From Catalimonadaceae bacterium JC749 (lineage in GTDB: Bacteria; Bacteroidota; Bacteroidia; Cytophagales; Cyclobacteriaceae), in assembly GCA_021730635.1 (NCBI GenBank), contig JAJNNC010000001.1, positions 496,001-560,000 on the forward strand: a stretch of 64,000 nucleotides of DNA, in the 5' to 3' direction. Numbering within the stretch: position 1 is the stretch's first letter; each line of letters starts with the position of its first letter. The position numbers and the translations under genes were made by a program. Under the pieces are notes generated by a model. The model saw nothing but the letters and a program-made list of their open reading frames with translations, did not search any database and was not told the origin of the DNA. Positions 30,786 to 46,770 of this stretch are shown in pieces.

Positions 30786-30891
30786 TGTCCGATTACGAAC
30801 ATTTCTGCCCGCTAACGAACAGAAATTCATCATGGGTATTTTTGTAAATCGCTCATTGACAAGTGTTTAATACCTAGCATATTAATTGAAG
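30786..30891 (+). promoter_or_regulatory. Paired palindromes and -24/-12-like promoter before the 30937 permease operon
   Basis: TGTCCG-ATTA-CGAACA at 30786-30801 and TGCCCG-CTAA-CGAACA at 30806-30821 start 20 bp apart. TAGCAT-ATTAA-TTGAA at 30875-30890 matches the promoter pattern of the other loci except for one G-to-A change in the -24 half. The predicted start site lies about 35 nt before the ATG at 30937. The LytTR two-component genes diverge from here. Confidence 0.72.
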
Positions 30892-30936
30892 AAGAGATTT
30901 TCAACGTCATTGACCAGTTTTTTTATCTTCTCTGTT

Positions 30937-33354
30937 ATGTTTAAAAACTATCTCACCATTGCTTTGCGTAACCTGTGGAAGTATAAGCAGATTACTTTTA
31001 TCAATATTTTTGGTTTGGCCGTAGGCATGACTGCCTGTATTCTCATCCTGCTTTTTGTGCAGCATGAACTGAGCTACGACCGCTATCATGAAAAGGCAGA
31101 CCGGATTTACCGTGTCTCCCGGGAGTGGCGCAATGAGGATGGCACCACTAACCTGCATCTGGGTCATGCAGCTCCTCCTTTTGCCCCATTGCTGGAGAAT
31201 GATTTTCCCGGCGTCGTCTTACAGGCTGTCCGCCTGATCGATGATAGTCCGTTGATTACCTACGAGGAGGGCAACAAACAGATTGTAGAGGAGGATTTCT
31301 TTTTTGCCGACCCTGATATCTTCCAGGTCTTTACCTTTCCGATGCTTCAGGGAGACCCGAAAACGGCCTTGCAGGAACCTAATACGGTGGTGTTGACAGA
31401 AAGTACCGCTAGAAAATACTTTGGTGAAGAGAACCCCCTGGGAAAAACACTGAACTACAACAACTCCGTAGATATGAAGGTGACCGGGGTGGTGGAAGAC
31501 GTGCCTTCCAACTCCCATTTTCATTTCGGCATGCTGGCTTCTTTTACCATGGTAGAAAATTTCTTTGGTATAGACAACCTGATGTCCAACTGGGGGAACA
31601 ATTCCTTTTCTACCTTTTTGCTGTTACCCGAGGGGTATGATCCTGAGGATCTGCAGGCGCAAATCCCAGGTTTTCTGGATAAACACCTGGGCGAATACCA
31701 GGGCATTCCGGCCTCACGGTTTAATTTTCTGCACCTCTGGCCACTCACTGATATTCATTTGCACTCTCATCTGGATTCTGAAATTGAACCCAATGGAGAT
31801 ATTGCCTATGTGTACATTTATACCATCATTGCCTTGTTTATCCTGGGTATCGCCTGTATCAATTTCATGAATCTTTCTACGGCACGGGCAAGCAGAAGAG
31901 CCAAAGAAGTGGGCGTACGGAAAGTAATGGGTGCCCTACGCACTACCCTGATCAAGCAGTTTGTCTCTGAGTCTATGGTTATCGCTGTCTTTTCACTTCT
32001 GTTAGCAGTATTGTTAACCACACTGTTTCTCCCCTATTTCAATAATTTCCTGGGTAAAATGCTTTCCCTGAATGTGGCCGAAAACTTCTTTGTCTTGCTA
32101 TTGCTGGTAGGTATTGTGATGGTGGTAGGGCTGGTAGCAGGAAGCTATCCGGCTTTCTTCTTGTCTGCTTTCCAACCAGCCAGCATCTTACGGGGCGGGG
32201 GACATCCGAAAGGCAAACATACCCACTTACGGGCCGGACTGGTCGTGTTGCAGTTTACCATTGCCACTGCCCTGGTAGTAGGTGTCATCACCATAGAAAA
32301 ACAGTTGGATTATGTGAAAAGTAAACCGCTGGGTTTTAACAAGGAAAACCTGGTAGCCTTACCCGCTAACCAGGAAATTTATAATCAGTTTGAGTTAATC
32401 AAAGCACAGCTGATAGAACAACCGGGTATTTCAGACGTCACCCTCTCGAGCCGTATACCCTCCGGCAGGTTGCTGGATTCTCAGGATGCCCAGGCCGAGG
32501 TAGACGGACAGATGAAAGATGTAAATTTCCGCATTGCCGATGTGCACGTAGACCACGACTTTTTAAACTCTTTACAAAGTACCTTTGTAGCAGGCAGGAA
32601 CTTTGACTTCGAGCGTGTCAGTGATTCTACGGAAGCTTTTATCATTAATGAGGCCACGGTGAAAGCCATTGGCTGGCCTTCCGCAGAAGAGGCGGTAGGA
32701 AAAGAATTTCACTATGGCGACCGGCAGGGCTATATCATTGGAGTAGTGCAGGACTTTCACTTTGAATCTTTACACCAGCCTATTGCTCCCATTGTTTTTA
32801 TGGTCACTGGAGGCAGATTCAACAATGTAATCGTACGCATCAAGGAAGGAGCTATGGAGCAAACCCTGGATTATCTGAAAGAGCGCTGGGCTTACTTACA
32901 ACCTGGTTATCCTTTCACTTATTTTACCATCCATGACCGTTTTGATCAGCAATATACGTCGGAAGATAAACTGAGCAAGGTGGTACAATACTTTTCGATG
33001 TTAGCCATTATCATTGCCGCTTTAGGGTTGGTCGGACTAGCCTCTTATACAGCCGAGCTGCGCTTTAAAGAGATTGGTATCCGCAAAGTGTTGGGGGCTT
33101 CGGTGGGGCAAATTTTGTTGCTGCTTACCAGAAGCTTTACCTGGCTGGTGCTGCTGGCTTTTCTGATCGCCTGTCCGCTCGCCTGGTACCTGATGCAGCA
33201 GTGGCTGGACACTTTTGCCTATCATGATACGCTTCACTGGTGGGCATTCCTGGCGGCCGGCGCCTTCTCTATCCTCATTGCCTGGGTCACAGTAGGGTCT
33301 CAAACTATACGAGCTGCTGCCAGCAATCCGGTAGAATCATTGAGAAGTGAATAA
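30937..33354 (+). CDS. FtsX/MacB-type permease (array member 2, first of a three-gene operon)
   Basis: The start is set at 30937 (MFKNYLTIALRNLWKYK), aligned with all paralogues; a GTG/TTG further up would only add a leader that overlaps the predicted transcription start. The product has about 805 residues with two FtsX helix sets (SRRAKEVGVRKVMGA and RFKEIGIRKVLGA) and the tail NPVESLRSE. The two periplasmic domains differ markedly from those of array member 1, which suggests different ligands or partners. The next permease follows after a 188-bp gap filled by an inverted-repeat element, with no new palindrome pair, so transcription probably continues into it. Confidence 0.9.
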   Translation: MFKNYLTIALRNLWKYKQITFINIFGLAVGMTACILILLFVQHELSYDRYHEKADRIYRVSREWRNEDGTTNLHLGHAAPPFAPLLENDFPGVVLQAVRLIDDSPLITYEEGNKQIVEEDFFFADPDIFQVFTFPMLQGDPKTALQEPNTVVLTESTARKYFGEENPLGKTLNYNNSVDMKVTGVVEDVPSNSHFHFGMLASFTMVENFFGIDNLMSNWGNNSFSTFLLLPEGYDPEDLQAQIPGFLDKHLGEYQGIPASRFNFLHLWPLTDIHLHSHLDSEIEPNGDIAYVYIYTIIALFILGIACINFMNLSTARASRRAKEVGVRKVMGALRTTLIKQFVSESMVIAVFSLLLAVLLTTLFLPYFNNFLGKMLSLNVAENFFVLLLLVGIVMVVGLVAGSYPAFFLSAFQPASILRGGGHPKGKHTHLRAGLVVLQFTIATALVVGVITIEKQLDYVKSKPLGFNKENLVALPANQEIYNQFELIKAQLIEQPGISDVTLSSRIPSGRLLDSQDAQAEVDGQMKDVNFRIADVHVDHDFLNSLQSTFVAGRNFDFERVSDSTEAFIINEATVKAIGWPSAEEAVGKEFHYGDRQGYIIGVVQDFHFESLHQPIAPIVFMVTGGRFNNVIVRIKEGAMEQTLDYLKERWAYLQPGYPFTYFTIHDRFDQQYTSEDKLSKVVQYFSMLAIIIAALGLVGLASYTAELRFKEIGIRKVLGASVGQILLLLTRSFTWLVLLAFLIACPLAWYLMQQWLDTFAYHDTLHWWAFLAAGAFSILIAWVTVGSQTIRAAASNPVESLRSE

Positions 33355-33360
33355 ACTAGT

Positions 33361-33516
33361 AGGGTACACGGTGGAACGATAACACGGTGTACGGTAGAAG
33401 GGTATACGGTATAGGGTATGGGTGTAAGATCTACGATCACCATTTACCCTTATACCTTTTACCGTGTTACCGTTCACCGTACTACCGTGTACCGTTTTAC
33501 CCTTCCACCGTAACAC
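33361..33516. repeat. Heptad-unit inverted-repeat element 1 (NNACGGT / ACCGTNN)
   Basis: The left arm (about 33361-33420) is made of 7-8 nt units ending ACGGT or AGGGT (ACACGGT, GTACGGT, ATACGGT, ATAGGGT). The right arm (about 33444-33516) is made of complementary units beginning ACCGT or ACCCT. The spacer includes ATCTACGATCACCATTT, identical to element 2. Transcribed, it would fold into an imperfect hairpin with arms of 60 or more nt, in the gap between two permease cistrons. Confidence 0.85.
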
Positions 33517-33542
33517 TGTAAACCATACTACTGTGTAAAAAC

Positions 33543-35984
33543 ATGCTAAAAAACTACCTGATCATCGCTACACGCAGCCTGATGCGGCAAAAGCTACTCA
33601 CCTTGATCAATATACTGGGCCTGGCCATGGGATTATCCTGCTGCCTGCTGATCCTTCTGTATGTATCTCACGAGGTAAGTTATGACAAATTTCATACCCG
33701 TGGTGACCGTATCTACCGGGTCAACTGGGCCAGCAACCTCAGTGGAGAAAGCCGCCCATCTGCCACCACCTCTATCCCCCCGGCAGAAGCAATTATCCAC
33801 GACTTGCCCTCAGTAGAAGCCGTCGCCAGAATGTATAACAGGAGTGGTAGTGTAGAAGCGGAAAAAGAAGTAAAATTTCAGGAACAACAGGTTTATTTTA
33901 CAGACAGCACATTCTTCCGGATCTTTTCTCTACAATTTCTTTCGGGAAATCCTGCGCTTGCGCTGACCTACCCAAACGCTGTTGTGATCACGGATGAAAT
34001 GGCTCGAAAGTACTTTGGGCATACAGATGTTCTCGGCAAATCATTGTGGTATGAAAACAATACTTCTTTAAAGATCACAGGCGTTATAGAGAAGCTGCCG
34101 TCTCATTCTGACCTTACCTTTGATTTTCTTATTTCTTTTGAAACTTTGTTTCTGGTAGAAAACAAAGAAATTGCCGATTACCTGAAGTCCGACTGGCTGT
34201 ACAATCCTGTCTATACTTTTGTATTGCTCCCACCGGGTCAGGCACCGACTGAAGTAGAAAAAGGATTAGCAACCCTGCTAGAAAAATATGCCGACGAAAG
34301 AGTTAAACAACATATCTCGCTCTCTTTACAACCTTTGCATGAAATACATCTCTATGCGGAAGGGATAGAGGGAAATCCCAGTACCAGTAGCATTACCTAT
34401 ATCTATATTTTTGTGGCTATTGCCCTGATCACCTTGCTGATTGCTGGTGTCAATTTTATTAATCTGGCTATAGCGTATTCCTTAAAGCGGGCCCGGGAAG
34501 TAGGGTTGCGAAAAGTATTGGGTGCCCGGCCTATTCAATTAATCGTACAATTTTTAGGAGAATCCGTATTGGTATGCATTCTAGCTTTTCTGCTGGCTTT
34601 TTTCCTGACACAGCAGTTTCTTCCTCTGCTTAATGATATTACAGGAAAACAATTGACACTCAGCCTGGCCAATAATCTGTATGTACTGTTCGCTTGCGTT
34701 GCCTTGTTTGTGACAACCAGTCTGCTGGCCAGTGCTTATCCGGCCTTTGTCATCTCCCGCTTCGAGCCTGCTATGGCACTGAAAGAAAAGGTAGGGGGTG
34801 TAGGGCAGGGACGTTTACTACGTAAAATTTTAGTAATCACTCAATTTTCTGCTTCCTTTGTTCTGATGGTGGGTGCCTTCGTCATTTATGAGCAACTCCA
34901 GTATCTTCGGAATAAGCCTCTGGGTTTCCAGAAAGAACAAATTCTGGTCGTACCCATTTTCGGAAGCAACGCTTCCAGTATTAGCCATGCCGTGGATGGC
35001 CCGCTGAGAAACAGAATGAATGCCTTTGAAGAAGCTTTGCTACACAACAGTCATATCGGGGCTGTCACGGCGGCTTCTTCCATGCCGGGCGCTGGTTTTG
35101 TGAGAGGACTGATGATTCCGGAAGGATTTTCAGAGCAGGATAACCTTTTCGTACCCTGGGTGTCTGTAGATTATGATTTCATTGCTACCCTGCAAATTCC
35201 TTTGGTAGCAGGACGCGATTTTTCTAAAGATACAGGCACAGATCACCTGCAGGCTTTTATTATTAATGAATCGGCCGTTCGTATGTTTGGATGGAAAAAT
35301 GCACAGGATGCGCTGGGCCGGTCTATCATTCGAGGCGACCAGCAGAATGGGAAGCAGGGGCAGGTAATAGGCGTTATTCAGGATTATCATTTCAACACTT
35401 TGACACAACCTCTAGAGCCGCTCGTATTAGATGTGAATGCCGGAAGATTCACGGAATTTGCAGTGCGTCTACAACCTGACCATATGCCCGAAACGATAGC
35501 CCATATTGAGAAGCAATGGAATGCGGCTTTTCCAGAACGGGTGTTTGAATATAGTTTTCTGGATGATAATATTGATGCCCTTTATGACACTCAGGAAGAT
35601 TTGAATAAAACCATTGGATATTTTGCCGGGCTAGCCATTCTCATTTCCTGCCTGGGTCTTTTTGGTCTGACTTCCCTGTTTGCCGTTCAGCGTACTAAAG
35701 AAATTGGAATCCGTAAGGTGCTGGGTGCCACAGTACAAAGTATTGTACTGCTGCTTTCGAAAGAGCTTCTATGGCTGGTGGGTGTAGCCCTCCTGATAGG
35801 AACCCCTTTTGCCTTTTATGCCACCTACTGGTGGCTTCAGGATTTTGCTTACAAAATCGAGATAGGCTGGTGGCTATTTTTTGAAGCTGGTCTTTTTGCT
35901 GTATTTCTGGCGTGGTTAACCATCAGCTATCAGACCATTAAGGCAGCATTGATCAATCCGGTAGACAGTTTAAGAAATGAATGA
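33543..35984 (+). CDS. FtsX/MacB-type permease (array member 3)
   Basis: These 813 residues begin MLKNYLIIATRSLMRQK. The first helix set carries LKRAREVGLRKVLGARPIQL and the last TKEIGIRKVLGATVQ; the tail is NPVDSLRNE. The protein has the usual duplicated layout, with no obvious loss. The periplasmic half after the first helix set is longer than in member 4 and includes an unusual SNASSISHAVDGPLRN stretch. There is no palindrome pair upstream; a heptad hairpin element separates it from member 2. It is best read as the second gene of the 30937 operon. Confidence 0.9.
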   Translation: MLKNYLIIATRSLMRQKLLTLINILGLAMGLSCCLLILLYVSHEVSYDKFHTRGDRIYRVNWASNLSGESRPSATTSIPPAEAIIHDLPSVEAVARMYNRSGSVEAEKEVKFQEQQVYFTDSTFFRIFSLQFLSGNPALALTYPNAVVITDEMARKYFGHTDVLGKSLWYENNTSLKITGVIEKLPSHSDLTFDFLISFETLFLVENKEIADYLKSDWLYNPVYTFVLLPPGQAPTEVEKGLATLLEKYADERVKQHISLSLQPLHEIHLYAEGIEGNPSTSSITYIYIFVAIALITLLIAGVNFINLAIAYSLKRAREVGLRKVLGARPIQLIVQFLGESVLVCILAFLLAFFLTQQFLPLLNDITGKQLTLSLANNLYVLFACVALFVTTSLLASAYPAFVISRFEPAMALKEKVGGVGQGRLLRKILVITQFSASFVLMVGAFVIYEQLQYLRNKPLGFQKEQILVVPIFGSNASSISHAVDGPLRNRMNAFEEALLHNSHIGAVTAASSMPGAGFVRGLMIPEGFSEQDNLFVPWVSVDYDFIATLQIPLVAGRDFSKDTGTDHLQAFIINESAVRMFGWKNAQDALGRSIIRGDQQNGKQGQVIGVIQDYHFNTLTQPLEPLVLDVNAGRFTEFAVRLQPDHMPETIAHIEKQWNAAFPERVFEYSFLDDNIDALYDTQEDLNKTIGYFAGLAILISCLGLFGLTSLFAVQRTKEIGIRKVLGATVQSIVLLLSKELLWLVGVALLIGTPFAFYATYWWLQDFAYKIEIGWWLFFEAGLFAVFLAWLTISYQTIKAALINPVDSLRNE

Positions 35985-35992
35985 CGGTGAAC

Positions 35993-36140
35993 CGGTAATA
36001 CGGTAGTACGGTACACGGTGAAAGGGTATAGGGTAATATCTACGATCACCATTTACCCTTATACCGTTTACCTTTTTACCGTACTACCCTATACCGTGTA
36101 CCGTACTACCGTTCTACCATATATCGCACCACCGTGAACC
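35993..36140. repeat. Heptad-unit inverted-repeat element 2
   Basis: The left arm runs GAACCGGT, AATACGGT, AGTACGGT, ACACGGT, GAAAGGGT, ATAGGGT. The spacer is ATCTACGATCACCATTT, shared exactly with element 1 and followed in both by ACCCTTATACC. The right arm runs ACCGTTT, ACCGTACT, ACCCTAT, ACCGTGT, ACCGTACT, ACCGTTCT. It sits in the 177-bp gap between permeases 3 and 4, again without promoter motifs. Confidence 0.85.
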
Positions 36141-36161
36141 GTTTGTATAAATAATAGAAGA

Positions 36162-38576
36162 ATGTTAAGAAATTACATCAAGACAGCCCTACGCAACCTG
36201 GTAAATAGCAAATTTTATTCACTGCTAAACCTGTTAGGATTAACACTAGGCCTTGCCTCCACCCTGTTCATTGTATTGTATGTGGTGGAAGAACTCCGAT
36301 ACGACCGCTTTCATACGGATGCCGATAGGATCTACAGAGTCAGGATGGACCGTTATGACAGAGGCAGCAAAACATTTGAGAGCGCTGTTACTTTTCCGGC
36401 AGTAGGCCCGGCCATGGAAAGAGATTTTCCGGAAGTAGCCGGTTATACCCGCATGTTGCCCTATGCCCGCGGCGTCTATGCTTATGAAACTCCGAAAGGG
36501 GAACTCCGGACCTTTCAGCAGGAACAGGCCGTTTTTGCAGACAGCAATTTCTTCCAGTTTTTTTCTTATCCACTGCTTCAGGGAGACCCGGCTACTGTCC
36601 TTCAGGGACCCAATAAGGTAGTTATTTCTGAAACAATGGCGCAGTTGTATTTTGGAGAGGAAAACCCCATAGGCAAACTGCTTACTTTCCGGGGTGAAGA
36701 AGTATTGGAAGTGACCGGCGTTATGGCTGATCCTCAGGCTTCGCACCTCATTTTTACGATAGCCGTGTCTATGGCAACATTGGAAGGCTTTGAGGAGTTT
36801 GAAACTTTGTGGGGCTGGTATGATTTCTATACATATATCAAACTTCGCCCTGCAACAGACCCACAAACTTTAGAAGCCAGGTTTTCTGACTTCATCAACC
36901 GCTACAAAGGAGAAGATTTACAGGAGGTGGGCTGGCAGGAAGTATTCTTACTGCAACCACTTACCAGCATTCACCTGTATTCTCACCTGAGTTGGGAAGC
37001 AGGTGTGAATGGCGATGGCAACACCGTCTATTTCCTGTTGCTGGTGTCAGGGCTTATTATCGCTATTGCCTGGATCAATTTTGTGAACCTGACCACTGCC
37101 CGTGCCATGAAACGGGCCCGGGAAGTAGGCGTGCGCAAGGTAGTGGGTGCCAGCCGTATCCAACTGATCCGGCAGTTTATGCTGGAATCTCTGCTCCTGA
37201 ATGTGACCGCTTTGGCACTAACCATGGTATTCGTACAGGCATGCCTTCCTCTTTTCAATCGCTGGTTACAATTTGAACTGACTACCCGTTGGCTGTTTTC
37301 ACCCTGGGGCTTAACTGGGCTTTTCTGTGCATTAGGATTCGGTACCATCGCCTCCGGATTGTATCCGGCCTTTCGCCTGAGTGCTTTCCGGCCCGTGCGG
37401 GTGTTAAAAGGAGCCCTTCCCTCGGCACACCGTGCCTTTTCCTTCCGACAGGTCCTGGTCGTATTTCAGTTTACGGCTTCCATTATTCTTATTGTGGGCA
37501 CTCTGGTTGTCATACAGCAGCTTCATTTTATGAAAGCGCAGAACCTGGGCATCGATCTTACCCAAACGCTGGTTGTCAGAGCCCCTTCCGTAATAAACCA
37601 GGAGACCCGCACCGACCGCCTGGAAGTATTTCGCCAAAGAGTCACTCAAATTCCTACCGTCAGGAGTCTGGCTGCCACCAGTAACCTGCCCGGAGAAGAG
37701 AACTTCGCCATCAGCTCTGTACGTAGTGCCCATGAGCCGGAAGTGTACCGGGACGTGTACAACGTAAGTGTTGATCATCATTTTATGGAAGACTTTGAGA
37801 TTACCTTTCTGGCCGGACGAAACTTTTCTGCTGATTACCCTTCAGATACGTCGGCAGTCATTCTCAATGAAACGGCTTTGAAGCTATTGCAATTTGAATC
37901 TGCTGAAGCTGCCATCGGCGAGAAGATTCTGTTGAATCAGGACCGGGAAGAAACCATTATTGGCGTCATCAAAAGCTATCATCAGGCTTCACTTCGGGAA
38001 GAACTTGACCCCGTACGGTTTATTCTGGCACCTCAATACACGGGTTTCTATGCGCTGAAGATCAGTGCCACACAACCACAGCAGACACTTGCCGACCTGG
38101 AAAGAGTGTGGCAAACCTTGTATCCGGGCAACCCAATGGATTACTTTTTTCTGGATGAACATTTTGCTCAGCAGTACAAAGCGGATGAACAATTTAAAGA
38201 TATCTTCTTGCTCTTTGCCGGACTGGCCATCCTGATAGCCTGTTTGGGGTTGTTTGGGCTAGCTTCTTACACCGTTGAGCAAAGTACCAAGGAAATAGGT
38301 ATCCGTAAGGTGCTGGGCGCCTCCACTTCCAGTATTGTCACGCTTTTGTCACGGGATTTTGTCAGGCTTATCGTCATGGCATTGGTGCTTGCCCTTCCCT
38401 CAGGCTATTTCATTTTTGAGCAGTGGTTGCAAAATTTCGCCTACCGGATGGAGATACCCTGGTGGCTGTTTCCGATCGTTGGGCTGTTGGCCTTACTTAT
38501 TGCCCTACTGACCATCAGTTTTCAATCGGTGAAAGCAGCGCTGGCCAATCCGGTGAGCAGCTTAAGAAGTGAATAG
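36162..38576 (+). CDS. FtsX/MacB-type permease (array member 4)
   Basis: These 804 residues begin MLRNYIKTALRNLVNSK. Helix-set motifs are MKRAREVGVRKVVGASRIQL and TKEIGIRKVLGAST; the tail is NPVSSLRSE. The first periplasmic domain contains the common FADSNFFQFFSYPLLQGDP block, shared in varied form by all members and typical of the MacB_PCD domain. Last gene of the 30937 operon: a new palindrome pair begins 7 bp after its stop, serving the next permease. Confidence 0.9.
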   Translation: MLRNYIKTALRNLVNSKFYSLLNLLGLTLGLASTLFIVLYVVEELRYDRFHTDADRIYRVRMDRYDRGSKTFESAVTFPAVGPAMERDFPEVAGYTRMLPYARGVYAYETPKGELRTFQQEQAVFADSNFFQFFSYPLLQGDPATVLQGPNKVVISETMAQLYFGEENPIGKLLTFRGEEVLEVTGVMADPQASHLIFTIAVSMATLEGFEEFETLWGWYDFYTYIKLRPATDPQTLEARFSDFINRYKGEDLQEVGWQEVFLLQPLTSIHLYSHLSWEAGVNGDGNTVYFLLLVSGLIIAIAWINFVNLTTARAMKRAREVGVRKVVGASRIQLIRQFMLESLLLNVTALALTMVFVQACLPLFNRWLQFELTTRWLFSPWGLTGLFCALGFGTIASGLYPAFRLSAFRPVRVLKGALPSAHRAFSFRQVLVVFQFTASIILIVGTLVVIQQLHFMKAQNLGIDLTQTLVVRAPSVINQETRTDRLEVFRQRVTQIPTVRSLAATSNLPGEENFAISSVRSAHEPEVYRDVYNVSVDHHFMEDFEITFLAGRNFSADYPSDTSAVILNETALKLLQFESAEAAIGEKILLNQDREETIIGVIKSYHQASLREELDPVRFILAPQYTGFYALKISATQPQQTLADLERVWQTLYPGNPMDYFFLDEHFAQQYKADEQFKDIFLLFAGLAILIACLGLFGLASYTVEQSTKEIGIRKVLGASTSSIVTLLSRDFVRLIVMALVLALPSGYFIFEQWLQNFAYRMEIPWWLFPIVGLLALLIALLTISFQSVKAALANPVSSLRSE

Positions 38577-38582
38577 GCACAC

Positions 38583-38687
38583 TGTCCGTTGTTGTACATC
38601 TATGTCCGAATTCGTACAACTCATTAAAAAAATGCTTTTCTAATTCTATAGAAAAACGGCTTTTTCATATTGGCACTATTGTTAGTA
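38583..38687 (+). promoter_or_regulatory. Paired palindromes and -24/-12-like promoter before the 38803 permease
   Basis: TGTCCG-TTGT-TGTACA at 38583-38598 and TGTCCG-AATT-CGTACA at 38603-38618 start 20 bp apart. TTGGCAC-TATTG-TTAGT follows at 38670-38686 with the GG 54 bp beyond the second palindrome. The leader to the ATG is about 107 nt, longer than at the other loci, and contains a small hairpin ACAGC-TATG-GCTGT at 38721-38734. Confidence 0.75.
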
Positions 38688-38802
38688 AATAAATGCTGAC
38701 AGTATGGGGTCAGACTGCGCACAGCTATGGCTGTCTGCACAATATAAACATAGACCATGCATACTATGATCGTTTTCTACGCATTCAACGCTTACTAATA
38801 AA

Positions 38803-41247
38803 ATGATAAAAAACTACTTCGTTATTGCCATACGAAACCTGCTACGGCATAAGGTGTTTTCGTTCATCAACATCTTTGGGCTGGCAGCCGGCATGTCTAT
38901 CTGTTTACTGATCATTTCTATGCTGATAGAGCAAAAAAGCTATGATCAGTTTCATGAGAATAAAGACCGTATTTACCGGGTTATTACTCATCCCTTTCCT
39001 TACAACAATACGGCTACCTCCCCTGATCTGCTGGCCGAAGCGCTGGAAGAATATACTACCATAACACAAACCACCCGGCTCAAGCGAGGCTTTGGCGGAG
39101 ATGCTACTTATCACCAAACTACCATCCCGCTGATTGGATTCTTTGCAGAATCTTCTTTGTTGGAAGTGTTTGATTTTCCTCTTAAATATGGCAACCCTCA
39201 GCTGGCGCTGCAGGAGCCTTTTTCTATCGTTCTTTCAGAAGAAATGGCTGAAAAACTTTTTGGAAATGAAAATCCGCTGGGCAAAGTTTTATCATTTGAA
39301 GAACGGGGTCTGAATGCTTTTGGCTACAGTCTGAGTGCACAGAAAGGTCAGCCTTATGGTGATTTTAAGGTAACGGGTGTTTTTGAGAAAACGACTAACA
39401 AGACACACATCCCCATGGACGCTTTCATGTCTTATGCCACCCGCCAGGGGCTGGTGCAGCAGGGTATCTGGGAAAAGCATGAGGAAAAATGGTCGGATGT
39501 TCACAATACCTATACCTATGTGCTGTTAAAAGAAGGGCAGTCGGTGGAAGAATTTTCAGCGATCCTGGATCAGGTGGCACAACGTGAATATGCACAACTG
39601 GAGGAAGCGTATCATCCCTACCGGTTCCAGGCACAACCACTAACACAGATTACGCCAGGTCCTTTTACCCTGAATAATCCGATGAGTATTCAGTTGCCGC
39701 GGGAATCCTATTATTTCTGGGGCATCCTGGCGCTGCTCATTATGGTCACGGCCAGTTTCAATTATACCAACTTATCCATTGCCCGCTCGCTGACCAGAGC
39801 AAAAGAGGTGGGCATCCGCAAGGTGTCGGGAGCTTTCCGCTATCATCTTTTTGGCCAGTTTATAGGCGAATCCATTATCATTGCCGTCTTGTCGCTGGGC
39901 ATGGGTATTCTTTTTTTTCAGGTCTTAAAATCCGGCTTTATCAACTTGTGGGTTAATCAGTACCTGGAATTTGAATTGGCTGAGAACATTTCTATTTATC
40001 TTTATTTTCTGGTATTTGGCATCATCGTAGGCCTGATGTCCGGCTTTTATCCTGCCCTTTACATGAGCCGTTACTCACCTTTGCAGGTGCTGAAAAATTT
40101 CAAGCTGGTTCGCCCCGGAGGTCTGGGTATGCGTAAAATACTCATTACGCTTCAGTTTACCTTCTCTCTTGTTTTTGTCATATCCGCGCTCATTTTTTAT
40201 AAACAGCTAGACCATTACCTGCACATGGAATATGGCTTTTCTAAAGAGAATATACTCAATGTAGAACTACAGGGCCAGGAATATGATAAAGTAGCCAGCC
40301 AGCTGGCGCAGGTCAATGCGGTAGAAGACATTTCAGGCAGTTGGTACGTTCCTGCCTCCGGTATTCAGATTGGCAAAGAGGTACGTATCAAAGAAACTGC
40401 AGAACCCTTATATTTGAATTACATGGCTGTTACGCCCAATTATTTTGTCAACCATCAGATTCCCCTGCTGGCCGGCAAAACATTCTCCCTGGAAAATCCT
40501 TTGCAGGAAATTGTAATCAACCAAAAAGCAGTGGGGTTACTGGGTCTGAACAGTCCGCAGGAAGCGATAGGCACCACGCTACTGGTTGAGGATACAGAGG
40601 CGACAGCAGGCTATCGTAATGTGGTAGTGGTGGGCGTAATCAGAGATTTTCAGGGAAATCTGCCCATAGAAGAGTTACAACCGATGATGCTGGATTATGA
40701 TCCGGCCAACATCAAAATTGCCAATGTGCGCATCCTGCCTGCAGATATCCGGGAAACCATGGCCTCCCTGGAAGAAAGCTGGCAGGCTATAGACCCTTTG
40801 CATGCCTTTGAGGCTCAATTTCTGGAAGACCAGCTGAATACCATCATCAGGGTTTTTGTGGATATTCTGAAAGTCTTCGGCTTTCTCACCTTCCTGGCTA
40901 TCACCATCGCTTGTCTGGGTCTTTTGGGAATGGCTGTTTTTACGGCAGAAAGCAGAGTAAAAGAGGTCGGTATTCGCAAAGTGATGGGTGCAGAAACAGG
41001 ACAACTCGTTTTTCTACTGTCCAAAGGGTTTCTGCAACTGCTGCTCATCGCTGTGGTCATTGCTGCTCCTATGGCTTATTTCGGCAATAACCTATGGCTG
41101 CAAAACTTTGCCAACCACATCTCCCTGCACCCCGGCACTTTTCTGAGTGGTATTGCCATCATGCTGGGCTTGGGCTTGCTGGTCATTGTATCACAAACAC
41201 TGAGGGCTGCCATGCATAATCCTGTCAAAAGTTTACGGGATGAATAA
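38803..41247 (+). CDS. FtsX/MacB-type permease (array member 5)
   Basis: These 814 residues begin MIKNYFVIAIRNLLRHK. This member is the most divergent of the set: the helix-set motif reads LTRAKEVGIRKVSGAFRYHL, and the last one SRVKEVGIRKVMGAETGQL. Its tail is NPVKSLRDE. The first periplasmic domain has an insertion around SFEERGLNAFGYSLSAQKGQ. It is transcribed alone: its own paired-palindrome promoter lies upstream and a second pair lies 13 bp after the stop. Confidence 0.9.
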   Translation: MIKNYFVIAIRNLLRHKVFSFINIFGLAAGMSICLLIISMLIEQKSYDQFHENKDRIYRVITHPFPYNNTATSPDLLAEALEEYTTITQTTRLKRGFGGDATYHQTTIPLIGFFAESSLLEVFDFPLKYGNPQLALQEPFSIVLSEEMAEKLFGNENPLGKVLSFEERGLNAFGYSLSAQKGQPYGDFKVTGVFEKTTNKTHIPMDAFMSYATRQGLVQQGIWEKHEEKWSDVHNTYTYVLLKEGQSVEEFSAILDQVAQREYAQLEEAYHPYRFQAQPLTQITPGPFTLNNPMSIQLPRESYYFWGILALLIMVTASFNYTNLSIARSLTRAKEVGIRKVSGAFRYHLFGQFIGESIIIAVLSLGMGILFFQVLKSGFINLWVNQYLEFELAENISIYLYFLVFGIIVGLMSGFYPALYMSRYSPLQVLKNFKLVRPGGLGMRKILITLQFTFSLVFVISALIFYKQLDHYLHMEYGFSKENILNVELQGQEYDKVASQLAQVNAVEDISGSWYVPASGIQIGKEVRIKETAEPLYLNYMAVTPNYFVNHQIPLLAGKTFSLENPLQEIVINQKAVGLLGLNSPQEAIGTTLLVEDTEATAGYRNVVVVGVIRDFQGNLPIEELQPMMLDYDPANIKIANVRILPADIRETMASLEESWQAIDPLHAFEAQFLEDQLNTIIRVFVDILKVFGFLTFLAITIACLGLLGMAVFTAESRVKEVGIRKVMGAETGQLVFLLSKGFLQLLLIAVVIAAPMAYFGNNLWLQNFANHISLHPGTFLSGIAIMLGLGLLVIVSQTLRAAMHNPVKSLRDE

Positions 41248-41259
41248 TAGACCTTATAT

Positions 41260-41365
41260 TGTCCAGGAGTGGACAAGCTTGTCCGGTCACGAACAGTGTT
41301 TGTGGGAAGAATCCTTGTATATGCCTTAATAACAAAGGTTTTTCACTTGGCACGCTTTTTCTATA
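41260..41365 (+). promoter_or_regulatory. Paired palindromes and -24/-12-like promoter with no gene directly after it
   Basis: TGTCCA-GGAG-TGGACA at 41260-41275 and TGTCCG-GTCA-CGAACA at 41280-41295 start 20 bp apart. TTGGCAC-GCTTT-TTCTA at 41347-41363 has its GG exactly 54 bp after the second palindrome. Downstream there is no reading frame above 20 codons before a strong terminator at 41517-41544. Confidence 0.72.
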
Positions 41366-41372
41366 AGCTATG

Positions 41373-41544
41373 ATGCCCTTCTGTTAGAGGTGGTTCTGAT
41401 ACAGAAGGTAGACTGATATACAAATGAGGCAGGTAACGAATTGTTACCTACTTCAGGCAGCCAATAATAAAAGTAGTTTATAGCAAGTACATCTCATAGT
41501 TCTCTAGTATTTAAGGCACAGGTCTGTATGGCCTGTGTTTTTTT
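41373..41544 (+). ncRNA. Candidate sigma-54-type small RNA between permease genes
   Basis: The unit has a predicted promoter (-12 at about 41361), a start near 41373 and an intrinsic terminator ending at 41544, about 172 nt. Two perfect stems lie inside: CCTTCTGT (41377-41384) with ACAGAAGG (41401-41408), and AGGTAAC (41431-41437) with GTTACCT (41443-41449) around GAATT. The longest frame is about 19 codons. It resembles no RNA family I know. Alternatively it is what remains of a deleted gene between its old promoter and terminator. Confidence 0.5.
41517..41544 (+). terminator. Intrinsic terminator upstream of the 41748 permease
   Basis: CACAGG (41517-41522) pairs with CCTGTG (41532-41537) around a 9-nt loop, followed by seven T residues. 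It lies more than 260 bp after the stop of permease 5 and 58 bp before the next palindrome pair, so it closes a separate upstream transcript. Confidence 0.75.
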
Positions 41545-41601
41545 AAATATGTAAGAAACCACAGGCAGACAGATAACCCTGCCTCGCAGTGCTTAAAAAT
41601 T

Positions 41602-41697
41602 TGTCCGTAAACGGACACAAATGTTCTCATGCGTACAGATAAGAGCTGGTAAAAAGCTCAAATTTGCCTGTTATCACAGATGGCATATTTTTTTCAA
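41602..41697 (+). promoter_or_regulatory. Paired palindromes and -24/-12-like promoter before the 41748 permease operon
   Basis: TGTCCG-TAAA-CGGACA at 41602-41617 (a perfect palindrome in its arms) and TGTTCT-CATG-CGTACA at 41622-41637 start 20 bp apart. TGGCAT-ATTTT-TTTCA lies at 41681-41696, the GG 45 bp from the second palindrome. The predicted leader is about 42 nt to the ATG at 41748. Confidence 0.72.
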
Positions 41698-41747
41698 ACC
41701 CAGAAGAAATAGTTTACTTTTTTACCTTTCACGCTAATACTGGTATA

Positions 41748-44123
41748 ATGCTGAAGAATTATCTGCTTGTTGCTTTAAGAAGCTTCAACAAACAAAAAGT
41801 ATATGCGCTGGTCAACCTGACCGGGCTTACGATCGCCATCGCCGTTGCTATCCTGGCGGTCGTTTTCATCCGTCATGAACTGAATTATGATGTCTGGGTT
41901 CCTAACCAGGAAAACATTTACAAAGTGTATAGAAACTGGGAGAACTCCGGAGGCTCGGCCTGGACACCCTACCCTCTCGCTGAAGTATTGCGTAATGAGT
42001 TTCCTGAAATTCAGAGTGCTACGCGCGTAGAAAACACAGGGGAAGTGTTGATTGCTACGGAAGATCAGCAAAAATCAATTTACGCTAAAGATGCTATTTC
42101 TACTGACAGTAGTTTTCTACAGGTATTGCCTTTTCCCTTGCAAGCCGGTGATCCGGAAACGGCACTCCAACCACCATTCTCTGCTATTCTAAGCCACACT
42201 CTGGCTGAAAATTTATTTGGCAATGAGAATCCCATCGGAAAAATCATTGTCTTTAATGACGACACCGACTACCAGGTGACAGGGGTGCTGGAACCTTATC
42301 AGGGAAATACCCACCTGGACACAGATATTATATTACGTGACACTACCTATGCAGGAGGGTCCTGGTCTGGCAATAGCCCTGCCGCCTATGTGGCTCTGGC
42401 TGAAGGGGCTGACATACCCTTTCTAGAGCAGAAGATCACAGACAATATCACACCCAGAATCAAGGCAGAAGTAGGCGACAGCTGGAAAAAATTTCCCGAC
42501 TGGAAACTACAGGCCCTGACTGCCATACATTTGAACGAAGCCAATGTGCATGGCCCTTTTGTAGGAGAAGGCCGGGTGCGTACGGTCTATATTATTGGCA
42601 TAGTGGCAGTGCTGGTGCTGACCATCGCCAGTATCAACTATATGAACCTGGCAACAGCGCAGGCAACAAGGCGCGCTCGTGAAGTAGGCGTACGCAAAGT
42701 GACCGGAGCGAGCAACCAGCAACTGATCCGGCAATTTCTGGCAGAAGCCACACTCCAGGCTTTTATCGCCTTACCGCTGGCGATGATACTGGCAGATTTT
42801 ACGTTACCTGCCTTTAAAATGGTAGTAAACCGGGATTTGGTATTGAACTGGTTTGTATGGAGAGATTTGAGTGGTTATTTGCTGGTATTGGTGAGCCTGC
42901 TGGGCATACTGTCTGGAAGTTATCCGGCGTTTTTTCTGGCTGCGTATCGTCCTACCGACGTGCTGAAAGGGCAGTGGCTACGTAAAGACAAGGGAAAAGT
43001 ATTGCGCAATGGGATGGTGGTCGTACAGTTCACCGGTGCCATGGTAGCTGCCATTGTCATGTTTTTTATCTATCAGCAGGTGCAGTTTATGCAAACGCAG
43101 GAACTGGGTTTTCAGCCGGAGCAGGTGATGGTGATCAAAACCAACACCAACCAGACCTACCAGAAAGTAGAAGCCATGAAGCAGCAGCTTTTGCAGAATT
43201 CTCATATCAGAGGCATTAGCGGAACTACTACCCTGCCCGGTCAGCAGGAATCAGATTACGCATTCAAAGTGGGAGGTTTTGAGGAAGATCAGTTTATTGA
43301 TATTTATTTTACAGACGCCGATTATACAGAGACCCTAGGGTTAACCTTGAAAGAAGGTAGATTTCTTTCCCCAGCCGATACTACACCCAATACTTTTGTG
43401 GTCAATGAATCCTTTGTGAAAGAATTTCATCTGGAAGATCCTATTGGTCATCCGTTGACTTTCAGTATGATGGAAACCACTGGCACTATCATTGGCGTCA
43501 TTGAGGATTTTCATTATCATAGTTTAGAAGAAAATATCAGTCCTCTTGCCATTTCCGGTGCTATAGATTCCATGCGCGGCGGATGGATTCACAATGTAGC
43601 CGTCCGGCTTTCTACACAGGATATACAAAGTACTATTGCTGAAGTAGAAACATTCTGGAAACAGATAGAACCTGCCCACCCCATGCGCTACACTTTTCTG
43701 GATGATGATTTTGCCGGCCTCTATGCCGAACAGGAGAGGCTGGGCAAAACATTGTTATACGCAACCCTGCTGACGCTGCTGATCGCTGCCCTTGGTTTGT
43801 TTGGGCTGGCTTCCTATATGGCAGAGCAACGTATCAAAGAAATAGGGGTGCGAAAGGTATTGGGGGCTTCTGTCCAAGAGATTGTGCTGTTGATGGGAAA
43901 AGATTTTCTCAAACTGGTGCTCATTGCCGGTCTGGTAGCGGCACCTATTGCTTTCTGGCTGGCACAACGCTGGCTTTCCGGTTTTGCGTACCGTATGGAT
44001 ATGACGGTCTTCCCTTTTGTGTTGGTGATCCTTTTGGCTGTGCTGGTTGCTTTCCTTACAGTCAGTTCAAGAGCTATAAGAGCGGCGCGGGTCAATCCGG
44101 TAGAATCATTGAGAAGTGAATAA
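41748..44123 (+). CDS. FtsX/MacB-type permease (array member 6)
   Basis: The start is at 41748 (MLKNYLLVALRSFNKQK), matching the paralogues; an earlier in-frame ATG at 41664 would place the start inside the predicted promoter. The product has about 791 residues. Motifs: TRRAREVGVRKVTGASNQQL and RIKEIGVRKVLGASVQEI, tail NPVESLRSE. TM1 is unusually rich in Ala/Ile/Val (TIAIAVAILAVVFI). First gene of a two-permease operon with 44302, the two separated by the third heptad hairpin element. Confidence 0.9.
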   Translation: MLKNYLLVALRSFNKQKVYALVNLTGLTIAIAVAILAVVFIRHELNYDVWVPNQENIYKVYRNWENSGGSAWTPYPLAEVLRNEFPEIQSATRVENTGEVLIATEDQQKSIYAKDAISTDSSFLQVLPFPLQAGDPETALQPPFSAILSHTLAENLFGNENPIGKIIVFNDDTDYQVTGVLEPYQGNTHLDTDIILRDTTYAGGSWSGNSPAAYVALAEGADIPFLEQKITDNITPRIKAEVGDSWKKFPDWKLQALTAIHLNEANVHGPFVGEGRVRTVYIIGIVAVLVLTIASINYMNLATAQATRRAREVGVRKVTGASNQQLIRQFLAEATLQAFIALPLAMILADFTLPAFKMVVNRDLVLNWFVWRDLSGYLLVLVSLLGILSGSYPAFFLAAYRPTDVLKGQWLRKDKGKVLRNGMVVVQFTGAMVAAIVMFFIYQQVQFMQTQELGFQPEQVMVIKTNTNQTYQKVEAMKQQLLQNSHIRGISGTTTLPGQQESDYAFKVGGFEEDQFIDIYFTDADYTETLGLTLKEGRFLSPADTTPNTFVVNESFVKEFHLEDPIGHPLTFSMMETTGTIIGVIEDFHYHSLEENISPLAISGAIDSMRGGWIHNVAVRLSTQDIQSTIAEVETFWKQIEPAHPMRYTFLDDDFAGLYAEQERLGKTLLYATLLTLLIAALGLFGLASYMAEQRIKEIGVRKVLGASVQEIVLLMGKDFLKLVLIAGLVAAPIAFWLAQRWLSGFAYRMDMTVFPFVLVILLAVLVAFLTVSSRAIRAARVNPVESLRSE

Positions 44124-44126
44124 AAA

Positions 44127-44290
44127 ACGGTATACGGTAGAAGGGTATACGGTAAAGGGTATACGGTAAAGGGTATACGGTAAAGGGTATGGGCGTAAGA
44201 TAAACAGACACCTTATACCCTGTACCGTACTACCATATACCGTTTTACCGTGTACCCTATACCGTTCACCGTACCACCGTGTACCTTTTA
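44127..44290. repeat. Heptad-unit inverted-repeat element 3
   Basis: The left arm contains four near-perfect tandem copies of ATACGGT separated by AGAAGGGT or AAAGGGT (44133-44187). The right arm runs ACCTTAT, ACCCTGT, ACCGTACT, ACCATAT, ACCGTTTT, ACCGTGT, ACCCTAT, ACCGTTC. The spacer differs from elements 1 and 2 (ATAAACAGAC region). The expanded identical units of the left arm suggest slippage. Located between permeases 6 and 7. Confidence 0.85.
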
Positions 44291-44301
44291 TCATTTAAGA
44301 T

Positions 44302-46770
44302 ATGTTTAAGAACTACGTTACCACTACCCTAAGGAATTTTCGTCGACATAAGGCCAATACACTGATCAATATAGCAGGGCTGGCATTGAGTATTTCCTGC
44401 TGTATCTTTATCTACGCTTTTGTCAGACATGAATATACCTTTGACAACTTCCATCGCAAGGCTGATCGTATTTATCGGATAGTTTCTCAGTATAATGGTC
44501 CCAATGGATTAAGCTACCAGGGATATGTCACCTTTCCTTTAGCCAATGCCCTACGACAAGACTTTCCCGACCTTGAATATGTCACCCTGGTGTATAATAA
44601 CTTAACGGCAGTGGTCAAAACACAAAATGAAGCCGGAACGCTCAATATGTTTGAGGAAGATGAAATGGCGTATGCCGATGAATATTTTCTGGAAACTTTT
44701 GATTATGAGGTATTGGCTAGCCAACCGGGAAAACTGCTAGCTACCCCGGAAGAGGTAGTACTTACCCAAAAACTGGCAGATAAATTTTTTGGACGGGCTG
44801 CGCAAGGTCAGTATGAAACGCTGATAGGTCAGACTTTGCTTATCAATAAAAATCCCTACCGAATTTCAGCCATTCTGCAAGACATACCGCGTAATACCAA
44901 CGTTACTTTTCAGATGCTGCTCCCACTGAAAGCATTTGAAAGGCTGGAACCTCAGCAGGCTGAAAATTGGTATAACACCAATTCCAATACCTACGCATTT
45001 GTTACCTTATCCGAACAGGATGATCCTGCCAGGGTTGAAAAACAATTGGTTGCTTTCACCCATAAATACTTTAATGAAGAGACTGCTTCCCGACAGACCT
45101 ACTACCTGCAACCTTTAACAGCAGTACACACCGATGAACAATATGAAGGCACTCTCTATGCCGCACCCCGGATACTGATCATTGCTTTCGTAACCATGGG
45201 CCTGATCGTGTTGCTTACAGCCTGCATCAACTTTGTCAATCTAGCCACGGCACAGTCGGTCAAGAGGGCCAAGGAAATTGGCATTCGTAAGACCCTGGGA
45301 AGCCTTAAATATCAGCTGATCATTCAGTTTATGGGTGAGACTTTCCTGCTGACGATCCTGGCCTCGCTGGTAGCATTCTTTCTGGCCGACTGGTTTGCGG
45401 GTGTTTTCAACCAATATCTGTCAGTGGTTACTGATTATGGCCTCACCCTGGACATTTCTATCCTCTACTTTCTGTTAGGATTATCGTTGTTCATCACCTT
45501 ACTGGCCGGTTATTATCCGGCACAGATATTGGCCAGCTACCGTCCGGTAGAAGCTTTGAAGCAGTCTATTTCGCAAAAAAACACAGGTTTTGCTGGCCTG
45601 TTCTCATTGAGAAAAACTTTGGTGGTTGCCCAATTTGTAATTTCACAACTGCTAATCATAGGTACCCTGGTGGTGGCCATGCAAATGCACTACTTCCGCA
45701 ACCTTGATCTGGGCTTTGCCAAAGAAGGAATTATGGTTGTTTTCACTCCGGGCGAAGATCAACAGAAACTGGAGGTTTTACGGAACGAACTGATGAAGCA
45801 GGCACCCATACAGTCTGTCAGTTTCAACTCAGGACCACCTACCTCCGGCAGCAGCAGTTGGACCAACTACTATGCTAAATCTGCGGGAGATGGGGAGAAG
45901 TACGCCATCGAACGAAAGTATATAGACCCTGAATATCTGTCTATCTATGAGGTATCGCTGCTGGCAGGCAGAAGCCTGCGGGAAGAAGATAAGGTGAGCC
46001 GCGACAGTACCGGTGAGATAGCCCGCTACCATGTCTTGCTCAATGAAAAAGCAACAAAACTACTGGGCTATAGCCATCCGGAAGAAGCTATTGGTCAGGT
46101 CATCATCACAGATGCTACAGACGGTCGCGGCAGCGAAGCCACCATTGTAGGTGTGACAGAAAACTTTGCCAATGCTCCTTTACAGCAGGAAGTGCATCCC
46201 TGCATGCTGGTGTATAGCCGCGATTGGGTATATATGACGGCCATCAAAATGAATTTAGAACAAAAAGCCCAGACTTCAGCCTACATACAAAGTGTATGGG
46301 AAGCACTGTACCCTGACCAGTTTTATGAAGCTATGTTGTTGGACGAATACTTCCAGATTGAAGCCTTTTATTTGATAGAGGATATCATGTACCAGGGTTT
46401 TAAGATATTTTCTTTGCTGTCTATCTTTATCGGCTGTCTCGGTTTGTATGGCCTGGTGGCTTATCTCTCCCTGCAGCGCCAGAAAGAAATCGGCATTCGT
46501 AAAGTGTTAGGTGCATCTGTTGCTCAAATTATGTATCTGTTCACCCGTGAGTTTCTGTGGCTGGTCGTACTGGCTTTTATCATTGCAGCACCTCTTGGAT
46601 ATTTTGCCATGCAAGCCTGGCTGGAGTCTTTTGCCCACCGCATTGAATTGCACCTGGGTTATTTCGCGCTGGCGCTCCTGACTTCCGTAGGTATTGCCTG
46701 GATCACGGTAGGGTATAAATCCATTAAAACGGCTATCACTAACCCGGTAGAAAGCTTAAGGAGTGAGTAA
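44302..46770 (+). CDS. FtsX/MacB-type permease (array member 7)
   Basis: These 822 residues begin MFKNYVTTTLRNFRRHK. Motifs: VKRAKEIGIRKTLGSLKYQL and RQKEIGIRKVLGASVAQI; tail NPVESLRSE. Where other members read like ARKYFGEENPLGK in the first domain, this one has KFFGRAAQGQYETLIGQTL, a short insertion. It has no promoter motifs upstream and follows the heptad element, so it is probably second in the operon starting at 41748. It converges on the chromate transporter gene; the stops are 79 bp apart. Confidence 0.9.
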   Translation: MFKNYVTTTLRNFRRHKANTLINIAGLALSISCCIFIYAFVRHEYTFDNFHRKADRIYRIVSQYNGPNGLSYQGYVTFPLANALRQDFPDLEYVTLVYNNLTAVVKTQNEAGTLNMFEEDEMAYADEYFLETFDYEVLASQPGKLLATPEEVVLTQKLADKFFGRAAQGQYETLIGQTLLINKNPYRISAILQDIPRNTNVTFQMLLPLKAFERLEPQQAENWYNTNSNTYAFVTLSEQDDPARVEKQLVAFTHKYFNEETASRQTYYLQPLTAVHTDEQYEGTLYAAPRILIIAFVTMGLIVLLTACINFVNLATAQSVKRAKEIGIRKTLGSLKYQLIIQFMGETFLLTILASLVAFFLADWFAGVFNQYLSVVTDYGLTLDISILYFLLGLSLFITLLAGYYPAQILASYRPVEALKQSISQKNTGFAGLFSLRKTLVVAQFVISQLLIIGTLVVAMQMHYFRNLDLGFAKEGIMVVFTPGEDQQKLEVLRNELMKQAPIQSVSFNSGPPTSGSSSWTNYYAKSAGDGEKYAIERKYIDPEYLSIYEVSLLAGRSLREEDKVSRDSTGEIARYHVLLNEKATKLLGYSHPEEAIGQVIITDATDGRGSEATIVGVTENFANAPLQQEVHPCMLVYSRDWVYMTAIKMNLEQKAQTSAYIQSVWEALYPDQFYEAMLLDEYFQIEAFYLIEDIMYQGFKIFSLLSIFIGCLGLYGLVAYLSLQRQKEIGIRKVLGASVAQIMYLFTREFLWLVVLAFIIAAPLGYFAMQAWLESFAHRIELHLGYFALALLTSVGIAWITVGYKSIKTAITNPVESLRSE

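Follow-up and report, generated by a model that had tools for sequence, protein, structure and literature searches.

Permease genes, array elements and palindrome pairs in the window

The window, i.e., the whole 64-kb stretch of DNA that was analyzed, corresponds to G000:C1:496001-560000 in a genome of 8.0 Mb (G000) and contains a run of permease genes, all on the plus strand. The run opens with a long MacB_PCD/FtsX-type permease (30886..33354), followed by a permease with one MacB_PCD and two FtsX stretches (33543..35984) and by further permeases at 36162..38576, 38803..41247, 41664..44123 and 44302..46770. Three array elements, read directly in the sequence and likewise on the plus strand, lie in the gaps of this run. 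W1 (33361..33511) begins 6 nt past the stop of the first permease, and together with W2 (35984..36140) it flanks the second. W3 (44127..44285) begins 3 nt past the stop of the permease at 41664..44123 and precedes the one at 44302..46770. The permease downstream of W2 (36162..38576) and the next one (38803..41247) have no element behind them.

In all three elements, ANGGT units make up the left (5') arm and ACCNT units the right (3') arm. W1 consists of an R arm at 33361-33417 with seven ASGGT units, a loop at about 33418-33445, and a Y arm at 33446-33511 with eight ACCST units. W2 has its R arm at 35984-36034 and its Y arm at 36055-36140, and the arms of W3 lie at 44127-44188 (R, nine units) and 44217-44285 (Y). 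The first-pass annotation of this DNA had described three inverted-arm elements, and these are present with adjusted borders. Its start for W2, 35993, gave way on direct reading to 35984, where the first unit and the TGA stop of the preceding permease have 1 nt, an A, in common. The 28-bp core that it assigned to the first two elements was recovered as an exact 28-mer, ATCTACGATCACCATTTACCCTTATACC, which spans loop and arm in both W1 and W2. Hairpin folding of the message, also claimed there, agrees with predicted RNA folds of z -6.4 (W1), -7.1 (W2) and -8.5 (W3), with 0 of 200 shuffled sequences being equally stable. Detection of arrays with periods of 7, 8 and 15 across the window returned the same three, and W1 to W3 are the only such arrays there, as had been stated. 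A search of the window with Rfam 15 gave nothing above the gathering score, and a tRNA search of the window found none.

Pairs of palindromes with 20-bp spacing occur on the plus strand at 30786..30821 (TGTCCGN4CGNACA), ahead of the first permease of the run, where the pair is a putative operator, and at 38583..38618 and 41260..41295, in permease gaps that have no element and ahead of the permeases at 38803..41247 and 41664..44123, respectively. A perfect single palindrome (41602-41617) shares the gap of the last pair. The TGTCCGN4CGGACA-like halves start 20 bp apart (30786/30806, 38583/38603, 41260/41280), always upstream of permease genes without an element in front, and the pattern search gave nine matches where 1.2 were expected. 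A TPR/histidine-kinase gene (28526-30532) adjoins the palindrome-pair region. Palindrome pairs lead several permease genes in what are, by gene order, the same operons as those that contain elements; they were also seen at loci L046 and L048 of the same genome. The pairs are likely operators of a permease regulon.

Genome-wide census, unit grammar and distribution

Arrays were collected from the whole genome by searching with the W1 sequence and with the three-unit pattern ACGGTN{2,3}ASGGTN{2,3}ASGGT, after which the regions were read directly. The pattern gave 79 genome matches, as opposed to one for a reversed control pattern, and both searches agreed on a set of 17 arrays. Fourteen of these begin -1 to 25 nt past the stop codon of a long MacB_PCD + FtsX permease, a double-FtsX class that has about 70 genes in the genome (hypergeometric probability about 2e-26, with 6500 genes assumed). 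Ten of these arrays separate two tandem permeases. Among the others, the array behind permease C1:52680-55331 is followed by a Na+/H+ exchanger gene and a second one by a peptidase (prolyl oligopeptidase) gene, and another closes an operon. Array G1 shares its gap with permease array G2, which it faces. No permease adjoins array D, found behind ffh in the gap between this gene and a transketolase-like gene, or array F, which occupies a divergent gap and has no opposite arm. The proposal that such elements sit only between permease genes was thus borne out for the permease link (14/17) but not for exclusivity, given the exchanger, peptidase, operon-end, D and F cases. The corrected rule is that they lie immediately 3' of a permease stop codon, with few exceptions. 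Several permease operons of the genome have no element at all. Permease runs of up to about nine genes on contigs C12 and C86, an unusual permease expansion, carry none. Arrays with other words, of ATTCANN and CTTCANN type, were also seen in this genome (L051 11216-11380 and 14415-14470, on G000:C45), and these are not beside permeases.

In the ten permease-permease gaps the distance from stop codon to element is -1 to 15 nt and that from element to next start 15-31 nt, which leaves the start region free. The longest T run within 25 nt behind these elements is 1-4, by which intrinsic terminators were ruled out for these gaps; array D is the exception, with TTTTTT downstream of its stem in the ffh sense. 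A palindrome pair was found in 0 of the 10 element-bearing permease-permease gaps and in 2 of 23 other such gaps. The claim that elements occur where palindrome pairs are missing therefore holds, and within the window the exclusion is complete. The lack of both T-tracts and palindrome-pair operators in element gaps fits placement within operons. Judged from gene order, the simplest reading would be that the pairs mark operon starts while the elements sit inside operons.

Units are 7 or 8 nt long and follow the form A-N-GGT-R-N(-N). Most have the core ACGGT (141 units), followed by AGGGT (39), ATGGT (31) and AAGGT (12), and the commonest spacers are AT, AC, AGT, AA, AGA, GT, AAA and GA. Steps of 7 and 8 alternate in 97 of 145 cases, where 71 were expected (p 1e-5). 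The A and the GGT are fixed and the next two or three positions variable, a measure that is partly circular because units were anchored on GGT. All 15 two-armed elements of this genome start with the purine arm, whichever strand is read. The arms vary from 68 to 244 nt across elements and share no ends, which speaks against a MITE with its conserved length. Mirror symmetry between the two arms extends from the shared cores into the spacers, with 661 Watson-Crick pairs as compared with 598 ± 13.6 for spacer-shuffled arms. Read in the sense of the transcript, G.U exceeds A.C (0.66, null 0.557 ± 0.049), a value reached by 2 of 100 shuffles and computed on 15 elements that are not fully independent; this lends weak support to selection at the RNA level. 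Predicted RNA folds of the elements in this genome have z values of -6 to -10.

On a tree of 62 permeases from this genome, the presence of an element needs 12 changes, as compared with 12.7 for shuffled labels. Inheritance along with permease duplication was ruled out by this result. It follows that gain or loss of elements has happened many times over, at paralogues that diverged deeply. Element-bearing permeases are scattered across the tree, and the elements cluster by operon and not by permease lineage. Longer stretches common to elements E2 and E3, and to W1 and W2, indicate some copying between neighboring gaps. The first-pass annotation had offered three possible roles. Recombination points between paralogues are unlikely as the main one, since the permeases are mostly 30-40% identical and the elements do not track the tree. 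A classical mobile-repeat family finds no support either: the 17 copies are written in one unit grammar yet have neither termini nor a body in common. The remaining role, an RNA-level hairpin, is the best supported of the three.

Relatives and other phyla

In nearly all of 391 genomes of the family, searching for the ACGGT word gave at most 0-2 pattern matches; the exception, G080, has six, in what looks like a related heptamer array family. Arrays of the ACGGT word are missing from nearly all of the family, including G001, a genome of the same genus. Instead, the permease gaps of G001 contain hairpins of GGAGCNN(N) units, which begin a few nt past the stop, finish about 17 nt before the next ATG, and have predicted RNA folds of z -4.4 and -4.9. 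Whole-genome pattern searches located GGAGC arrays at four sites of G001, of which three follow permeases, and at none of G000. One pair of permeases, C67:412676-415072 in G000 (element G4) and L235 2671-5055 in G001, are reciprocal best hits with 61% identity, and both bear elements whose words are unrelated. At other orthologous permeases of these two genomes the presence or absence of an element differs, so that elements come and go and appear to be dispensable. A perfect 8-nt tandem array of about 17 copies, ATGGGTTA, was also observed in G001 (G001:C1:94513-94645, L303).

In the gap at ffh, G000 has an ACGGT array, G001 a hairpin of TTGAAGA type and G038 a TGGGTNN hairpin, and several other relatives have ordinary terminators there. 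TGGGTNN heptamer hairpins occur at many sites of G038 (L216/L304; C7:73878-73989 and other contigs), including the one directly after ffh. Permease gaps of G017 and G046 contain further words, with fold z values of -4.5 and -2.7, and those of G040 (L276, L277) contain GGGATT-like repeats enclosed by a GTCTGGAACC...GGTTCCAGAC inverted repeat, which are possibly a more MITE-like relative. A self-alignment score for 7/8 steps, applied to relatives only, flagged 7 of 74 permease gaps and 2 of 103 other gaps (p 0.036), a modest test since the loci in relatives had been chosen around permeases; control step lengths flagged almost no gaps. The hairpins built from a different word at the same kind of gene end in a sister species suggest a conserved architecture whose sequence may vary freely.

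GTDB genomes were scanned with a four-unit ACGGT pattern; loci were selected by the ACGGT word, and taxon counts are lower bounds. The matches listed come from Gemmatimonadota, Bacteroidota, Chloroflexota, Pseudomonadota and others, and almost all arrays among them are pure 7-nt. Among these same listed matches, 17 of 20 two-armed arrays have the purine arm first. In the 81 one-armed arrays listed, the median distance to a gene is 20 nt from the 5' end of the purine strand and 102 nt from its 3' end; the 5' end is the nearer one in 55 arrays and the 3' end in 26 (p 0.002), or 28 vs. 11 when the listed matches are counted by organism (p 0.009). The same directional rule, together with convergent pairs and closeness to stop codons, was reported for heptamers of Xanthomonas and Nostoc (Rehm et al., 2015; PMC4692102). 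Any model of array origin has to accommodate this rule, by which, in many phyla, the purine strand sets out from a gene and extends away. Some Gemmatimonadota, Caldilineales and Chitinophagales MAGs among the matches listed (L081-L198) have many ACGGTNN heptamer arrays per genome.

Possible explanations and known repeat systems

We tentatively favor the view that the elements are intercistronic mRNA hairpins in which the fold matters more than a freely drifting word. The arrays would be transcribed as part of a polycistronic mRNA immediately after stop codons, mainly those of MacB/FtsX-type permeases. The purine arm would be made first, and the emerging pyrimidine arm would fold back on it to give a stem of roughly 25-55 bp between two cistrons. 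Such a stem may act in the manner of REP/BIME sequences by blocking 3' exonucleases and separating neighboring cistrons, and could thereby protect or uncouple the upstream permease message while transcription continues. As a speculation, the purine-first order would sequester the C-rich arm upon synthesis, such that it would not serve as a Rho loading site. Growth of the arrays would probably proceed by unit duplication and by fold-back copying between the arms. We propose that, because only the fold and a free start region of 15-31 nt would matter, the word drifts and is replaced, and each species acquires its own. The folds predicted for elements of G001, G017 and G046 (z -2.7 to -4.9) support the hairpin reading, as do the position of most arrays behind permeases in G000 and G001, the spared start regions, the lack of T-tracts and the mirrored spacers. 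Against it, selection on the fold alone would admit unrelated hairpins, and a word shared by scattered loci calls for a homogenizing or copying process; element-free permease operons, turnover at G000/G001 orthologues and the one-armed array F are further difficulties.

It is also quite possible that the arrays are merely tolerated, having arisen at gene ends by replication slippage in heptamer steps and by hairpin template switching, and persisting where they do no harm, without function; the word would then differ between species because each array family expanded recently. Among the GTDB matches listed, ACGGT-type heptamers occur in many phyla without a common gene context, and the 5' anchoring of the purine strand extends to genomes without a permease link and looks like a trace of how arrays arise. 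The fast turnover between G000 and G001 and the other words at non-permease sites point the same way. What this leaves unexplained is the position of 14 of 17 arrays in G000 and three of four GGAGC sites in G001 after permeases. Slippage with random mutation should also blur all positions, yet A and GGT are fixed (by the partly circular measure), and the excess of G.U on the sense strand, though weak, would be unexpected. The fixed core with its spacer of 2-3 nt and the non-random 7/8 alternation could instead reflect binding sites, in which case a protein, or a TRAP-like ring-shaped RNA binder, would read the word in DNA or RNA and tie permease operons into a regulon, with the word changing along with the protein. 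One word across scattered permease paralogues within a genome, and another in the next species, would suit this idea. We consider it improbable, as it comes without a candidate protein, the number of units and their order vary freely, the word stands at gene 3' ends and the part of operators at promoters already seems to be taken by the palindrome pairs, and two arrays of the genome lie away from permeases. Least probable would be mobile or recombination-driven repeats (MITE/REP-like) that insert after stops or drive exchange of permease genes. The longer stretches shared by E2/E3 and W1/W2 could be read in this way, and elements that form direct repeats around whole permease genes would allow clean gene deletion. 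The 17 copies nevertheless lack common termini or body and are not tied to permease phylogeny, and the permeases are too diverged for frequent homologous exchange. A broader idea, which we regard as rather unlikely, is that gene-end hairpins are widespread and that their architecture and association with MacB/FtsX permeases are selected. The word would then be a species dialect rewritten genome-wide, with a trans-acting factor as its reader or a dedicated directional process as its source, one that extends the purine strand away from gene ends.

Heptamer arrays have so far been described in few genera, as curiosities, and a literature search on Bacteroidota heptamer hairpins found only the heptamer studies discussed below (PMC4692102, PMC4476775, PMC4679880). 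The closest published kind is that of the degenerate heptamers in Xanthomonas and Nostoc, and the elements are placed here as a variant of it. The published repeats are G-rich (GGGAATC in Xanthomonas, with the heterogeneous form GGGANTN, and GGGGA(C/T)T in Nostoc), intergenic, located on the sense strand no more than 50 bp from stop codons with some overlapping the stop, and mostly transcribed (Rehm et al., 2015; PMC4692102). Both kinds have tandem intergenic units with fixed and variable positions, a genus-specific word, and convergent pairs with the G-rich strand first that are able to form stems, and in the 14 permease-following arrays the G-rich strand is likewise near the stop (-1 to 25 nt). 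The published units are exactly 7 nt, whereas those of G000 alternate between 7 and 8 nt around a fixed A.GGT with the other positions variable, and mostly contain GG only and hence no G3 runs for a quadruplex. There are about 180 Xanthomonas/Nostoc arrays but 17 here, almost all beside one gene class, and here the two arms make one long predicted hairpin. The same architecture recurs in sister species behind genes of one class, with unrelated words, in cases that include one reciprocal-best-hit permease and the ffh gap. This makes architecture separable from sequence and renders testable the long-open question of whether heptamer arrays are a by-product of slippage or work as mRNA hairpins.

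In the cyanobacterial tRNA-Leu intron, the P6b stem is likewise built from complementary 7-nt repeats, and two unrelated motif classes produce a similar structure (PMC4476775). There too the word is exchangeable and the fold kept, but P6b repeats lie inside a group I intron, at one locus and in two classes only. TAACTGA heptamer direct repeats, for which a post-transcriptional role was proposed, occur in Beggiatoaceae, cyanobacteria and five Bacteroidetes (MacGregor, 2015; PMC4679880). Like the present elements they are intergenic heptamer arrays scattered over phyla that include Bacteroidetes; unlike them, they are direct repeats of an almost invariant unit, lie for the most part right ahead of start codons, and are predicted to be unfolded.

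Two other systems place inverted repeats at gene ends. The REP/BIME sequences of Enterobacteria are transcribed stems between cistrons and after stop codons, and a REP is a 20-40 bp palindrome of conserved sequence with a terminal tag, spread by RAYT transposases, unlike the 17 copies of G000, which have no conserved body or common termini. The inverted pairs of DNA uptake sequences in Neisseria are species dialects, with thousands of single-word pairs at gene ends that act as terminators. They resemble the present elements in having a species-specific word in inverted pairs at gene ends, and differ from them in that the elements of G000 are long arrays without a T-tract.
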